The notes under the pieces: model-generated
Databases searched by the model: none
The model's input: only the letters and a program-made list of their open reading frames with translations
What the model was told of the DNA's origin: nothing
Made by a program: the position numbers and the translations under genes
Origin: Ramlibacter tataouinensis TTB310
Lineage (GTDB): Bacteria > Pseudomonadota > Gammaproteobacteria > Burkholderiales > Burkholderiaceae_C
DNA: 64,000 nt
Direction of reading: 5' to 3'
Assembly: GCF_000215705.1 (NCBI RefSeq)
Contig: NC_015677.1
Location: 3,360,001 to 3,424,000, forward strand
Part shown: piece by piece, positions 49,411 through 53,690 of the stretch
Layout of the letters: each line of letters starts with the position of its first letter
Numbering within the stretch: position 1 is the stretch's first letter

Positions 49411-50451
49411 ATGCACTTCCTCTGGCCCCAATACCTCTGGCTCCTGCTGGCCCTGCCGCTGCTGGTGCTGCTCTACACCTGGCTGCTGCGCCGCAAGAAG
49501 AAGATGGCGCTGCGCTATGCCTCGCTGTCCATCGTCAAGGAGGCGATGAACACCGGGCAGACGGTGCGGCGCCACATCCCGCCGCTGCTGTTCCTGCTGG
49601 CCTTCGCCGCCATGCTGCTGGCGTCGGCGCGGCCGGTGTCCACCATCACCCTGCCCTCGGCGCAGCAGACCATCATCCTGGCGATGGACGTGTCGGGCAG
49701 CATGCGCGCGGCCGACGTGGAGCCCAACCGCTTGGTGGCCGCGCAGAACGCCGCCAAGTCCTTCATCGCCGAGCTGCCGCGGCACGTCAAGGTGGGCATC
49801 GTCGCGTTCGCGGGCTCGGCCCAGGTGGCGCAGCTGCCCACCACCAACCGCGAGGACCTGGTGACGGCCATCGACCGTTTCCAGCTGCAGCGCGCCACCG
49901 CGACCGGCAACGCCATCGTGATCTCGCTGGCCACGCTGTTCCCGGACCAGGGCATCGACCTGCAGGCCATGCAGACCGGGCGCGAGCGCCAGCGCGGCTT
50001 CGCCATCGACGGCGAGCGCAAGGAGAAGAAGGAGATCACGCCGGTGGCGCCGGGCTCCTACACCTCGGCCGCCATCATCATGCTGACCGACGGCCAGCGC
50101 ACCACCGGCGTGGACCCGATCGAGGCGGCCAAGATGGCGGCCGACCGGGGGGTGCGCGTCTACACGGTGGGCATAGGCACGGTGGACGGCGAGACCATAG
50201 GCTTCGAGGGCTGGTCCATGCGGGTGCGCCTGGACGAGGAGGCGCTCAAGGCCGTGGCCCAGAAAACCGCCGCCGAGTACTACTACGCCGGCACGGCGCA
50301 GGACCTCAAGAAGGTCTACAACAACCTGAGCTCCAAACTCACGGTCGAGAAGAAGGAAACCGAGATCTCGGCCCTGTTCGCGCTGGCTGCCGCGGCCCTG
50401 GCCTTGCTGTCGGCCGGCCTGTCGCTGCTCTGGTTCAACCGGATCCTGTAG
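49411..50451 (+). CDS. VWA domain-containing membrane protein (BatA-like)
   Basis: A 346-residue protein with an N-terminal pair of membrane helices (about 10-26 and 56-73), a periplasmic or cytoplasmic von Willebrand A domain with complete MIDAS DVSGSM (Asp93, Ser95, Ser97), the Thr loop and LTDGQRTTG, and a C-terminal helix (about 320-342). This BatA/YehP-like design pairs with MoxR and DUF58 proteins. A loop of about 25 charged residues (GRERQRGFAIDGERKEKKE) interrupts the VWA fold. Last gene of the cluster; a perfect 11-bp inverted repeat follows. Confidence 0.92.
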   Translation: MHFLWPQYLWLLLALPLLVLLYTWLLRRKKKMALRYASLSIVKEAMNTGQTVRRHIPPLLFLLAFAAMLLASARPVSTITLPSAQQTIILAMDVSGSMRAADVEPNRLVAAQNAAKSFIAELPRHVKVGIVAFAGSAQVAQLPTTNREDLVTAIDRFQLQRATATGNAIVISLATLFPDQGIDLQAMQTGRERQRGFAIDGERKEKKEITPVAPGSYTSAAIIMLTDGQRTTGVDPIEAAKMAADRGVRVYTVGIGTVDGETIGFEGWSMRVRLDEEALKAVAQKTAAEYYYAGTAQDLKKVYNNLSSKLTVEKKETEISALFALAAAALALLSAGLSLLWFNRIL

Positions 50452-50475
50452 CAGCAGCCGCACCGGCAGCGGCGC

Positions 50476-50507
50476 GCTGCTGCCCGTTCAGGAAGGCGGG
50501 CAGCAGC
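50476..50507. terminator. Inverted repeat between convergent VWA and PLP-protein genes
   Basis: gctgctgcccg (50476-50486), 10-base loop, cgggcagcagc (50497-50507): perfect 11-bp stem in the 77-base gap between convergent stops. A pyrimidine-rich tail (tccttcctttcctc) follows at 50518-50531. Probably a bidirectional terminator. Confidence 0.6.
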
Positions 50508-50528
50508 AGCGCTGCATCCTTCCTTTCC

Positions 50529-52163
50529 TCAGGTGGCGGAGGCCGCGATCTCGACGGCGAGGGCGCGGACGGCTTCCAGCATGCGATCGACGTCGTTCGG
50601 GTCGTGCCACAGATGGGTCGAGATGCGCAGCGGGAACTCGTTCACCGTGGTGTCGGCCGAGACCAGGCGCGGCACCGTGGTGTTGCGGATCACGATGTTG
50701 CGTTCGGTGCCCAGGCGGGTGACCAGCCTGCTGGAGGGCGACGCTGGCGTCGACGCATTGGTGGCCGTCGAGCGTCGGATCAGGTTCCTGCCCCCGTCGA
50801 TGCCGTAGAACGGGTTGAACGAGGTCAGCGCCGAGCCCAGCGCCATGTCGCGCGGCGCGTGCAAGGCCTCGGCCGACCCCCAGATCTCGACGATGCGCGC
50901 CTTGGTGTACGCCGCCATGGTGGTGACATAGGTCTCGATGTTCTTGCGGCCGATCGCGTCCCAGTCGGCACACGACGCGGCCAGCGCCTGGAACAGCGGC
51001 ACGTGCATGCTGCCGATGCTCTGGATGGCCGAGCCGATGTCATAGTCGCCGCGCTGCGTCCAGGGCACCGTGGCCGTGTTGTTCGAGCCGGTCAGGTAGG
51101 GGCGCGCGCCGGCCTGCCGGGTGGTGTTCGCGCTGCTGCTGACCACGGGGTAGTAAGGCGGCAGCGTGGAGGCAGCGTTCGGGCGGGCGCGGTTGCGCAC
51201 GATCAGGATGCCCGTGGAACCCGGGCCGCACTGCCACTTGTGGCCCGCGCCTGACATGAAGTCCACGCCGAGGTCGCCGTAGTTGTAGGCCATCATCCCC
51301 GGCAGGTGCGCGCCGTCGCAGATGGAGATCAGGTTGAACTCCCTGCAGACCGAGACGATCTCCCGGATCGGCAGCATGATGCCCGTGAGATAGGTGGGCG
51401 AGGACCACATGATGGCGCGCACGCGCTGGCCCGCCCCCTGCGCCGCCACCACCTCGTTGCGAAACAGGGTGCGGTAGAGCTCGGCGTTGTGGGTGGCCAT
51501 GGTGCCGTCGGCCAGCATGACCTGCCCGTCGCCCACCGGCAGCTTGATCCGCCGCACGACCACGCCGTAGCGCTCGACGGCGATGCCCAGCGGAACGTCG
51601 CCGCCGGGATGCTCGTGGTTGGTGGTGATGATCACGTCGCCCTGCTGCCAGGGGATGCCCAGGATGCTCTTGGACATGCCGTCCGAGGTGTTGTAGCTCA
51701 TCACCAGCTCGTCGGGCTCGACCCCGAAACCCCGGCCCTCCAGGGTTCCGGTGCCGCGGGCAATGGCGGTTCTCTCGGTGAGGAAGTTGCTGTAGCCGCT
51801 CTTGGATTCCACCGCGTAGGCGACGTTTTCCGCGTTGAACTTCTCTACCGTGGTCGTGGGCATCGCGCCTGCGGTGCCGATGTTCATGAACAGCTTCTGC
51901 GGGTTGAGCATGAACCGGGCCTGGACCGAGGACCAGAAGGCCTCGTTGGCCATCAGCTGGGCGCGCAGGGTCTCGGCGGTGGTGGGCACGGACTGGGCCG
52001 ACGCGCCGCCGCAGCCGGCCAGCCCGAAGGCGCCGGCGCTGCCCGCCAGCGCGCCCATGGCCTTGAGGAACATGCGCCGGTGCGGAACCCACTGCGCGGC
52101 GGGATCGAGGGCGGGCGCCTGGTCGGCGACCGGGCGGAGAGACGAAGAAGTGCTGGGGAACAT
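50529..52163 (-). CDS. Tat-exported class V aminotransferase-fold lipoprotein
   Basis: A 544-residue PLP-fold type I protein of the isopenicillin-N-epimerase/cysteine-desulfurase branch. Unusually it has an export signal: twin-Arg HRRMFLK (28-34), a hydrophobic stretch, and a lipobox GLAGC (Cys51). The catalytic core keeps the PLP Asp (CDGAHLPG, Asp283) and Schiff-base Lys309 (GAGHKWQCGPGSTG). Export through Tat fits a protein that folds around its cofactor in the cytoplasm. Its neighbour upstream is a RidA-family lipoprotein, 37 bases away on the same strand. Reaction and substrate are unknown. Confidence 0.88.
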   Translation of the reverse strand: MFPSTSSSLRPVADQAPALDPAAQWVPHRRMFLKAMGALAGSAGAFGLAGCGGASAQSVPTTAETLRAQLMANEAFWSSVQARFMLNPQKLFMNIGTAGAMPTTTVEKFNAENVAYAVESKSGYSNFLTERTAIARGTGTLEGRGFGVEPDELVMSYNTSDGMSKSILGIPWQQGDVIITTNHEHPGGDVPLGIAVERYGVVVRRIKLPVGDGQVMLADGTMATHNAELYRTLFRNEVVAAQGAGQRVRAIMWSSPTYLTGIMLPIREIVSVCREFNLISICDGAHLPGMMAYNYGDLGVDFMSGAGHKWQCGPGSTGILIVRNRARPNAASTLPPYYPVVSSSANTTRQAGARPYLTGSNNTATVPWTQRGDYDIGSAIQSIGSMHVPLFQALAASCADWDAIGRKNIETYVTTMAAYTKARIVEIWGSAEALHAPRDMALGSALTSFNPFYGIDGGRNLIRRSTATNASTPASPSSRLVTRLGTERNIVIRNTTVPRLVSADTTVNEFPLRISTHLWHDPNDVDRMLEAVRALAVEIAASAT

Positions 52164-52200
52164 GATTGACTACCTCATGGCTCAGGGTGGAAAGGATGGA

Positions 52201-52698
52201 TCACTTGTGCGCGATCACGGCGATCTCGATCTTGGCGTCGCGGGGCACGCGGGCCACCTCGACGGTGGCGCGGGCGGGCGCCTGGGTCTTGAAGTACTCG
52301 CCGTACACCTTGTTCATGGCGGCGAATTCATTCAAGTCCTTCATGTAGACGTGCGACATGACGACGTTGTCGTAGGTCATGCCCTGGGAACGCAGCTTCA
52401 CGCCGATGTGGTCCAGCACCGCACGGGTCTGCTCTTCGATGGTCGTGCCTGCCATGGCCGTGCCCGCCTTGTTGAGCGGCAGTACGCCGGAGATGTAGTA
52501 GGTGCGCCCGGCTTGCACGATCTGGGAATAAGGGCCGATCGCGGGATAGACGTCCGGCGTCGAATGGATGGTTTTCGATGCCGAGTTCGCGCCGCCTCCC
52601 GTGGAGCCCGCCATGCCGGTGGCGCACCCGGCCGACCCCAGGGCCAGAAAAAGCGCCGCACCTGTGCTCATCAATCTGCCCACAACTTGGCTGTTCAT
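52201..52698 (-). CDS. RidA-family lipoprotein
   Basis: A 165-residue RidA/YjgF-fold protein with a lipoprotein signal: MNSQVVGRLMSTGAALFLALGSAGC (Cys25), then a Gly/Ser linker and the chorismate-mutase-like RidA domain (about 45-165). Conserved PYSQ (56-59), the carboxylate-binding Arg143 (PARATVEVARVP) and Glu157 are present. RidA hydrolyses reactive enamine/imine products of PLP enzymes; cytosolic proteins are about 125-130 residues without a signal. Start ATG 52698 has AAGGAAC upstream; the GTG at 52809 would bury the signal. It leads the two-gene unit with the PLP protein. Confidence 0.9.
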   Translation of the reverse strand: MNSQVVGRLMSTGAALFLALGSAGCATGMAGSTGGGANSASKTIHSTPDVYPAIGPYSQIVQAGRTYYISGVLPLNKAGTAMAGTTIEEQTRAVLDHIGVKLRSQGMTYDNVVMSHVYMKDLNEFAAMNKVYGEYFKTQAPARATVEVARVPRDAKIEIAVIAHK

Positions 52699-53009
52699 TC
52701 GATAGTTCCTTGTTGACGTTAAAAAGATGTTTCTCTCCCTGACAACAAGGTCATTCAACTGCCGTGATTGCGCTTGAACAACTAGGCTAAACACGTAGTG
52801 GTCACTCACTTAATGATGAGCCACACCAAGGCTACGAATGCCAAATACCTCTCTTCATCTCATCATTAATGAGAAGTTCCAAGAAGAAGGTATTCACAAA
52901 CGCCTGGAGCGCGCGCGCAAGCGCACAGCGTTTTCTTGTGAGGATTTGTTTAGCGCGACAAGCGCGCCGAGGCGCGCCGTCGGTGGCGGCGCTTCGGCCG
53001 CGGGCGTGA
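52699..53009. promoter_or_regulatory. AT-richer region upstream of the ridA-like gene with an 11-bp inverted repeat
   Basis: A 311-base gap of lower GC than its surroundings. ttaatgatgag (52810-52820) and ctcatcattaa (52859-52869) are perfect inverted copies with 38 bases between, and attaatgag recurs next to the right arm; this looks like an operator. A plus-strand frame (52838-53080) begins plausibly, with MPNTSLHLIINEKFQEEGIHKRLERARKR, but turns into low-complexity sequence over lolD. It may be a gene relic. No promoter of quality was identified. Confidence 0.4.
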
Positions 53010-53080
53010 CTAGGTCAGCTGGCCAGCCGTCAGCCGCAGCTGGCGGCCGCAGCGCGCCGCCAGGGCCTGGTCGTGCGTGA
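52838..53080 (+). pseudogene. Possible small gene or gene remnant
   Basis: An 80-codon frame whose first 40 residues look protein-like and whose DNA is AT-rich compared with the flanks. The last 40 residues are Ala/Gly/Pro-rich and antisense to the end of lolD. No ribosome site or family recognised. It may be the decayed start of a lost regulator of the ridA unit, or noise. Confidence 0.2.
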
Positions 53081-53690
53081 CCAGCACGAACGCGGTGCCG
53101 CGTTCGCGCGCCAGCTGCAGCATCAGGTCGAACACGCCGTCGGCCGTGCTGCGGTCCAGGTTGCCGGTGGGCTCGTCGGCCAGCACGCAGGCTGGCTGCG
53201 TGACCAGGGCACGGGCGATCGCCACGCGCTGGCGCTCGCCGCCCGACAGCTCGGCCGGGCGGTGCCTGACCCGCTCGGCCAGGCCGACGGCGGCCAGCGT
53301 CTGCCGCGCCACCTCGCGGCAGCGCTCCAGGGGCTCGCGCCGGATGCGCAGCGGCATGGCCACGTTGTCCAGCGCGCTGAACTCGGGCAGCAGGTGGTGG
53401 AACTGGTAGACGAAGCCCAGGTGCCGGTTGCGCAGCCGCCCCTGCTCGGCCGCGCCCAATGCCGAGAGCTGCTGCCCCATCAGGCGCACCGTGCCCGCGC
53501 TGGGCGCGTCCAGGCCGCCCAGCAGGTGCAGCAGGGTGCTCTTGCCCGAACCCGAAGCCCCGACGATGGCCACGGTCTCGCCGGCGCGCACCTCGAAATC
53601 CACCGCGCGCAGCACCTCCACGTCCAGGCCGCCTTCGCTGAAGCGCTTGGCCAGCTGCTCGGCCTTCAGGACCGGATCCGGATCACTCAT
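53010..53690 (-). CDS. lolD: Lipoprotein-releasing ABC transporter ATPase LolD
   Basis: The 226-residue ATPase of the LolCDE complex. Walker [10 protein letters not shown] (about 43-51), signature [15 protein letters not shown], Walker [12 protein letters not shown], and the LolD-specific [28 protein letters not shown]. It drives transfer of outer-membrane lipoproteins to LolA. Start ATG 53690 overlaps the end of the permease gene by eight bases. Together with lolA (11.2 kb) and lspA (29.1 kb), much of the lipoprotein pathway lies in this window. Confidence 0.96.

Follow-up and report, generated by a model that had tools for sequence, protein, structure and literature searches.

Two adjoining minus-strand genes of Ramlibacter tataouinensis TTB310, one encoding a RidA-fold lipoprotein and the other a class V pyridoxal phosphate (PLP)-fold protein, make up a dedicated envelope pair that is well supported, because the two genes co-occur almost completely in other genomes and export-type N-termini are conserved on both products. 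Positions are given in the window, that is, the whole 64,000-nucleotide stretch of DNA that was analysed. We consider it probable that the two genes form a portable module whose products perform imine/enamine chemistry at the periplasmic face of the envelope. A sequence-only reading of the same DNA had suggested dedicated imine chemistry in the envelope; the envelope pair itself stands, on the strength of co-occurrence and N-termini, while the joint imine/enamine chemistry is something we infer.

The gene pair and its genomic site

The features of the locus are as follows:

49411-50451, plus strand: bat VWA gene, flanking the pair on one side
50452-53009, no strand assigned: stretch holding the pair, a clean gap between the bat VWA gene and lolD
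50529-52163, minus strand: class V (Aminotran_5) PLP-fold protein, 544 amino acids, from the open reading frame and PF00266
52164-52200, minus strand: 37 intergenic bases that include a GAGG-type ribosome site preceding the PLP gene
52201-52698, minus strand: RidA-fold lipoprotein, 165 amino acids, ATG at 52698 and stop codon ending at 52201
52600-52900, no strand assigned: start of the RidA gene and upstream DNA, GC 0.50, with about 0.67-0.77 in the DNA flanking the pair on either side
53010-53690, minus strand: lolD, flanking the pair on the other side, convergent with bat

The RidA and PLP genes are presumably read from a single transcript. An alternative, longer RidA frame with a GTG start would encode 202 amino acids. 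No match to a sigma-70 promoter was found between 50380 and 53080, and a scan of the surroundings of the pair for repeats was uninformative. In the window genome, 2564 bases, the pair among them, separate the matched stretches of bat and lolD, and in three genomes of the same genus, in which neither gene is present, these stretches are 44, 13, and 1 bases apart. Since the site is thus empty in all three same-genus genomes, the pair was either gained here without an adjoining regulator or transporter, or lost in the others. A plasmid-borne pair was considered and rejected, as a search of plasmids with the PLP protein (E <=1e-40) returned only four Streptomyces plasmids carrying relatives of 37-39% identity. 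For two of these plasmids (L153 and L154), no RidA is annotated near the PLP relative in a gene table that is incomplete, and a sigma factor gene lies close to the PLP relative.

Co-occurrence and adjacency in other genomes

Two draws of genomes were searched for both proteins. In an even sample of the order (349 genomes; limits of E <=1e-60 for the PLP protein and E <=1e-30 for RidA), each protein was detected in 3 genomes, the identical three, with the genes adjoining. In a draw from the family (299 genomes; RidA limit of E <=1e-25), each was detected in 22, again the identical genomes, with the matched PLP and RidA stretches less than 300 bases apart in all of them; the pair was spread over 17 of 141 genera, and 2 of the 22 PLP copies carry one TGA. 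These counts are to be taken together with the overlap between the draws, both of which include the window genome and the genome G133, and with the chosen limits, outside of which weaker relatives fall.

A scan of named genomes confirmed 90 PLP loci, 80 of which are listed and analysed here. These derive mostly from Burkholderiales, along with two Microvirga, several gammaproteobacteria, and metagenome-assembled genomes (MAGs), and they include a distant group to which Shewanella and Psychromonas belong. Where the PLP relative is at least 40% identical, RidA adjoins it in 52 of 56 listed loci, always on the same strand, upstream in 36 and downstream in 16, and 44 of these RidAs have a lipobox, the other 8 a Sec-like N-terminus. 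Of the four loci without RidA, two (L055 and L059) lie where the contig breaks off near the gene; a third (L024, PLP relative of 49%) has no RidA and just 1205 bases of downstream DNA; and for the last (L058, 43%), no RidA was found within 8 kb on either side. Among PLP relatives of 32-39% identity, RidA is present in 3 of 24 listed loci, and several of the others have little downstream DNA. Because these more distant relatives are mostly without RidA, this kind of PLP protein can apparently work without it.

The sequence-only reading had counted a lack of co-occurrence in relatives among the results that would refute it; co-occurrence is instead near complete and accompanied by adjacency (22 of 22 and 52 of 56). 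Chance neighbours were rejected as an explanation given the identical 22 genomes, the two gene orders, and the three genomes of the genus in which the site is empty. An excerpt of PMC4433059 describes genes that cluster in more than a single configuration as strong evidence for a functional link. Distances between PLP proteins and between RidAs were also correlated in a mirror-tree comparison that ignores kinship (r 0.438; 55 pairs, comprising 54 loci and the window; 0 of 2000 shuffles as high), although the shuffle and Fisher values overstate independence because the genomes are related. One locus, L070 of Paracidovorax konjaci, was dropped from this comparison for a broken frame: its PLP reading frame is apparently interrupted, and its RidA neighbour reads through.

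We also observed a recurrent setting for PLP relatives without RidA. In 14 of 25 such listed loci (L072-L075, L077-L085, and L088, from Shewanella and Psychromonas), the PLP relative is adjoined by a family 3 solute-binding protein and a GGDEF-EAL protein, identified by Pfam in L072 and by clustering in the rest.

The two proteins and their export signals

The RidA-fold protein scores above the cut-offs of both PF01042 in a profile search (E 4.9e-33, 114.1 bits, cut-off 27.3) and the Rid family hydrolase model TIGR00004 (122.3 bits, cut-off 106.25). The active-site positions, which we assign by way of E. coli RidA numbering, are present as Tyr57, Asn129, Arg143, and Glu158. Among the listed pair loci, the first three are kept in 55 of 55 RidAs and Glu158 in 53 of the 53 that are covered, 2 of the 55 being without coverage at this position. 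The residue that we take to match Cys107 of E. coli RidA is Thr145 in the window and is Thr in all 55. Some RidA proteins have chaperone roles, and the replacement of Cys107 by Thr in every copy could be read as pointing to a lipoprotein that shields the PLP enzyme by binding or as a chaperone and is not a deaminase; however, the complete retention of the other active-site residues and a score above the hydrolase cut-off argue against this, and we regard it as improbable.

RidA usually counts as a housekeeping enzyme of the cytoplasm or organelles. Export signals were judged by pattern, hydrophobicity, and conservation. Behind a signal-type N-terminus, the window RidA has the lipobox SAGC with Cys25, which is off consensus and weaker than the L/V-x-G-C found in most relatives, and of the three pair copies compared it has the least pronounced hydrophobic stretch. 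The lipobox pattern is nevertheless present in 119 of the 120 best-listed RidA relatives, the exception (P0138) having Tyr in place of Cys, and in 47 of 55 listed pair loci by pattern, the other 8 being Sec-like. As a control, 30 of the 48 RidA-domain places in 7 genomes were read. A hydrophobic run followed by a lipobox was seen in 3 of 3 pair copies compared to 0 of 27 other copies, so that a general habit of exporting RidA was not seen in these genomes. Two control RidAs (L194 and L195) have the four-letter lipobox pattern by chance, with weakly hydrophobic stretches, and another (L192) has a fairly hydrophobic stretch and no lipobox.

The PLP protein scores above the PF00266 cut-off (E 7.5e-14, 51.9 bits, cut-off 21.5) and is single-copy in its own genome in a protein search at E 0.001. 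Its N-terminus carries the twin-arginine motif HRRMFLK followed by the lipobox LAGC with Cys51, and further along are the Schiff-base residue Lys309 together with Asp283, His185, and Arg513, the last of which we take to be the carboxylate-binding position. Lys309 is kept in 80 of 80 listed loci and Arg513 in all 79 of these that are covered. Two cysteines, Cys312 (three residues past Lys309) and Cys398, are likewise kept in 80 of 80, and they might form a disulfide or take part in catalysis. The twin-arginine motif is found in 117 of the 120 best-listed PLP relatives, the remaining 3 being short (307-465 amino acids), and the lipobox pattern in 81 of the 120. Profile matches and motifs thus bear out the original description of both proteins, namely a RidA-fold lipoprotein with a Cys25 lipobox and intact Arg143 beside a class V PLP protein with a twin-arginine signal, a Cys51 lipobox, and Lys309, and the export-type N-termini ascribed to the two partners prove to be conserved on both, in the 120 best-listed relatives of each and in the pair loci.

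The identity of the PLP protein within class V was approached through its closest models and solved relatives. Among solved sequences, C-DES (a cystine C-S lyase) and PvdN rank first, joined in a family-profile search by the ergothioneine C-S lyase Egt2. The best NCBIfam match is also PvdN (NF051467), yet an identity as PvdN was rejected, since the 55.3 bits obtained compare with a cut-off of 650. An identity as a cysteine desulfurase (SufS/IscS/NifS) was rejected on two grounds: the scores of 20.4-41.6 bits against cut-offs of 377-661, and the lack of any Cys beyond residue 398 of 544. The catalytic Cys of desulfurases lies in the C-terminal part. Source names among the 120 best-listed relatives include selenocysteine lyase/cysteine desulfurase for 13 and isopenicillin-N epimerase for 16. 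The latter name would fit a periplasmic amino-acid racemase or epimerase whose side products are cleared by RidA, but it comes from one source, we saw no evidence for it, and no NCBIfam epimerase model matched, making this reading very improbable.

The resemblance to PvdN raises another alternative, in which the PLP protein would act in the periplasm on a siderophore or peptide, altering one of its amino-acid side groups, and RidA would clear a reactive by-product. PvdN, the best NCBIfam match and a top solved relative, and PtaA are both Tat-exported and periplasmic, as described in an excerpt of PMC6206403. Nonetheless, the score falls far below the PvdN cut-off, and the commonest neighbours of the pair in gene clustering are a kinase and a response regulator; we consider such tailoring unlikely.

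Export signals on the PLP protein were also compared between listed loci with and without RidA. The Tat motif is present in 54 of 55 pair loci and 24 of 25 loci without RidA. The lipobox is present in 47 of 55 pair loci compared to 1 of 25 loci without RidA, a count in which L055, cut by its contig end upstream, was entered as unread although its visible stretch is lipobox-like, and in which the single positive is L059, cut downstream. This pattern, in loci that are related by descent, suggests that the PLP protein may be held at the membrane where RidA is present. Co-anchoring does not appear to be universal, because 8 of the 55 pair RidAs are Sec-like and 7 of the 55 PLP proteins have a Tat motif but lack a lipobox; altogether, 13 of 55 pairs have a lipobox on one partner only or on neither, with L070 unread besides.

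A linked kinase, the proposed chemistry, and known systems

Beyond the pair itself, gene clustering identified a Cache histidine kinase and a response regulator as its commonest neighbours. Among the listed loci, the kinase is nearby in 35 of 55 pair loci compared to 0 of 25 loci without RidA, in three arrangements relative to the pair, and a LuxR-type response regulator is grouped in at least 20 pair loci, likely a lower bound because the calling of open reading frames was crude. In the one kinase run against Pfam (L016, 5479-6963), the domains are sCache_2, HisKA_3, and HATPase_c. In the family draw, 14 of the 22 genomes with the pair have the kinase next to it, and the other 8 have no kinase match at 1e-60; a kinase relative is found in 55 further genomes in which the pair is absent. 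The window genome has no such kinase at 1e-60, its matches being confined to the kinase part. In four Massilia loci (L015, L017, L047, and L057), inspection by eye found a different response-regulator-like gene beside the pair and a kinase-like gene further on. No report of a kinase linked with the pair was found in open-licence PubMed Central texts.

Among solved structures, the sensor domain of the L016 kinase comes closest to two Vibrio chemoreceptor-type entries, one from Anaeromyxobacter, and PscD; pockets of this kind contain pyruvate, acetate, and propionate according to excerpted text of PMC5062169 (4EXO, 4K08, and PscD). By alignment, the equivalents of Tyr90, Tyr143, Lys156, and Trp145 are kept in 35 of 35 kinases, a likeness to PscD and the single-Cache carboxylate sensors, and all 35 have Tyr where pyruvate-binding Tyr70 is found in the Vibrio domain. 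PscD is, however, a chemoreceptor, whereas the pair-linked protein is a histidine kinase in which the Trp92 equivalent is Phe. Moreover, three of the four hydrogen-bonding pocket residues of PscD are kept, short of the full set of a PscD-type carboxylate sensor, and PscD His103 is replaced by Asp in 24 of the 35 kinases and by Asn in the remaining 11. A reading of 20 of the 76 listed kinase matches in the family draw found Asp or Asn at this place in 13 of 13 pair-linked kinases, compared to His in 7 of 7 paralogues away from a pair. An acidic residue at this position would be well matched to a ligand carrying an amino group, and it is also possible that His103 was substituted across a clade while the ligand stayed unchanged.

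These results bear on the possibility that the pair makes or removes the ligand of the adjoining Cache kinase, with amino acids being sensed after periplasmic conversion. The presence of the kinase at pair loci alone among the listed loci and its frequent placement beside the pair in the family draw are consistent with such a role, as are the Asp/Asn substitution in the pair-linked kinases read (35 of 35 in listed loci, 13 of 13 in the family draw), against His in the paralogues, and the solute-binding and GGDEF-EAL genes beside PLP relatives without RidA. Given these neighbours, exported PLP proteins lie near envelope sensing genes in two settings, one with the kinase and one with the solute-binding and GGDEF-EAL proteins. 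On the other hand, the window genome has the pair and no such kinase, 8 of the 22 family pair genomes have none at 1e-60, and a kinase located by a catabolic pair may merely induce it. On balance, we judge this role somewhat unlikely for the pair as such. A related proposal, tentative and less likely than not, is an envelope route in which the anchored PLP enzyme and RidA would convert an extracellular amino acid through an enamine/imine to a periplasmic 2-oxo acid, and the Asp/Asn kinase would read the amino acid or the product, such that a converted signal is sensed.

Returning to the favoured reading of a two-gene module for imine/enamine chemistry, its steps can be outlined as follows. By the precedent of PvdN and PtaA and from its motifs, the class V enzyme would fold with PLP in the cytoplasm and then undergo Tat export and lipid anchoring, and RidA would be exported through Sec and likewise anchored. 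According to the rule in E. coli, the residue after the lipidated Cys decides sorting to the outer membrane; this residue is Gly in the PLP protein and Ala in RidA, and both proteins would be expected to reach the outer membrane. There, the PLP enzyme would act on an amino acid, most likely by C-S or beta elimination or a related deaminating reaction, and release a short-lived enamine or imine such as 2-aminoacrylate, which the co-anchored RidA would hydrolyse, giving ammonia and a 2-oxo acid and thereby protecting the PLP enzyme and whatever lies close to it. Where the Cache histidine kinase accompanies the pair, as it does in many relatives, its ligand may be a small carboxylate related to either the substrate or the product. 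Our first choice of reaction is elimination from an amino acid, because RidA genes cluster with PLP enzymes that form aminoacrylate, C-S lyases are among the nearest relatives, and Arg513 is conserved; alternatives would be oxidation, racemisation, or the tailoring of a compound that the cell secretes.

Several known systems share part of this arrangement. PvdN and PtaA, Tat-exported periplasmic PLP enzymes of pyoverdine tailoring that are loaded with cofactor in the cytoplasm, resemble the PLP protein in their type of export, and PvdN is among its best-scoring relatives; unlike them, the PLP protein has a lipobox in most pair loci, and no RidA partner is mentioned in the excerpt of PMC6206403 that describes them. 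RidA genes adjoining genes for aminoacrylate-forming PLP enzymes (dehydratase, lyase, and desulfurase) are described in excerpted text of PMC4433059, as in the pair, although the word "periplasm" is absent from the paper's main text; some of the cysteine desulfurase clusters in that paper could be this pair under an automatic name. A single cluster encodes OngC, a deaminase compared with PLP enzymes, and OngD, a 127-amino-acid RidA family protein whose role is given as unknown, and, in contrast with the exported pair, it serves the intracytoplasmic catabolism of an oxidised chitin sugar (PMC9537276, in excerpt). The excerpted account of the sphBCD operon has a periplasmic oxidoreductase and a cytochrome c and mentions no RidA (PMC11893366), and excerpts of secretome studies place an L-PSP protein among released proteins, with a table entry of "No" (PMC5183587, PMC12502724).

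C-DES and Egt2, the nearest solved sequences, share the class V fold with the PLP protein over 217 and 355 aligned profile positions, respectively, and we know of no export of either. No report of an exported RidA was found in open-licence PubMed Central texts. The original assertion that no such system has been described agrees with this search as regards the exported RidA and needs narrowing elsewhere, as Tat-exported PLP enzymes and RidA-PLP clusters are both known. Exported PLP enzymes and RidA-PLP clusters have been known separately, and the pairing in many bacteria points to an amino-acid reaction in the cell envelope that may be undescribed.

The source name cysteine desulfurase, carried by some relatives, is unsupported by the tests of score and C-terminal Cys, and the pair offers concrete genes with which to approach PLP reactions outside the cytoplasm, the delivery of their cofactor, and the ligands of Cache kinases. 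If the proposed reading is correct, a conserved exported RidA tied to one exported PLP enzyme would extend enamine/imine stress, or enamine/imine chemistry, to the periplasm as well.
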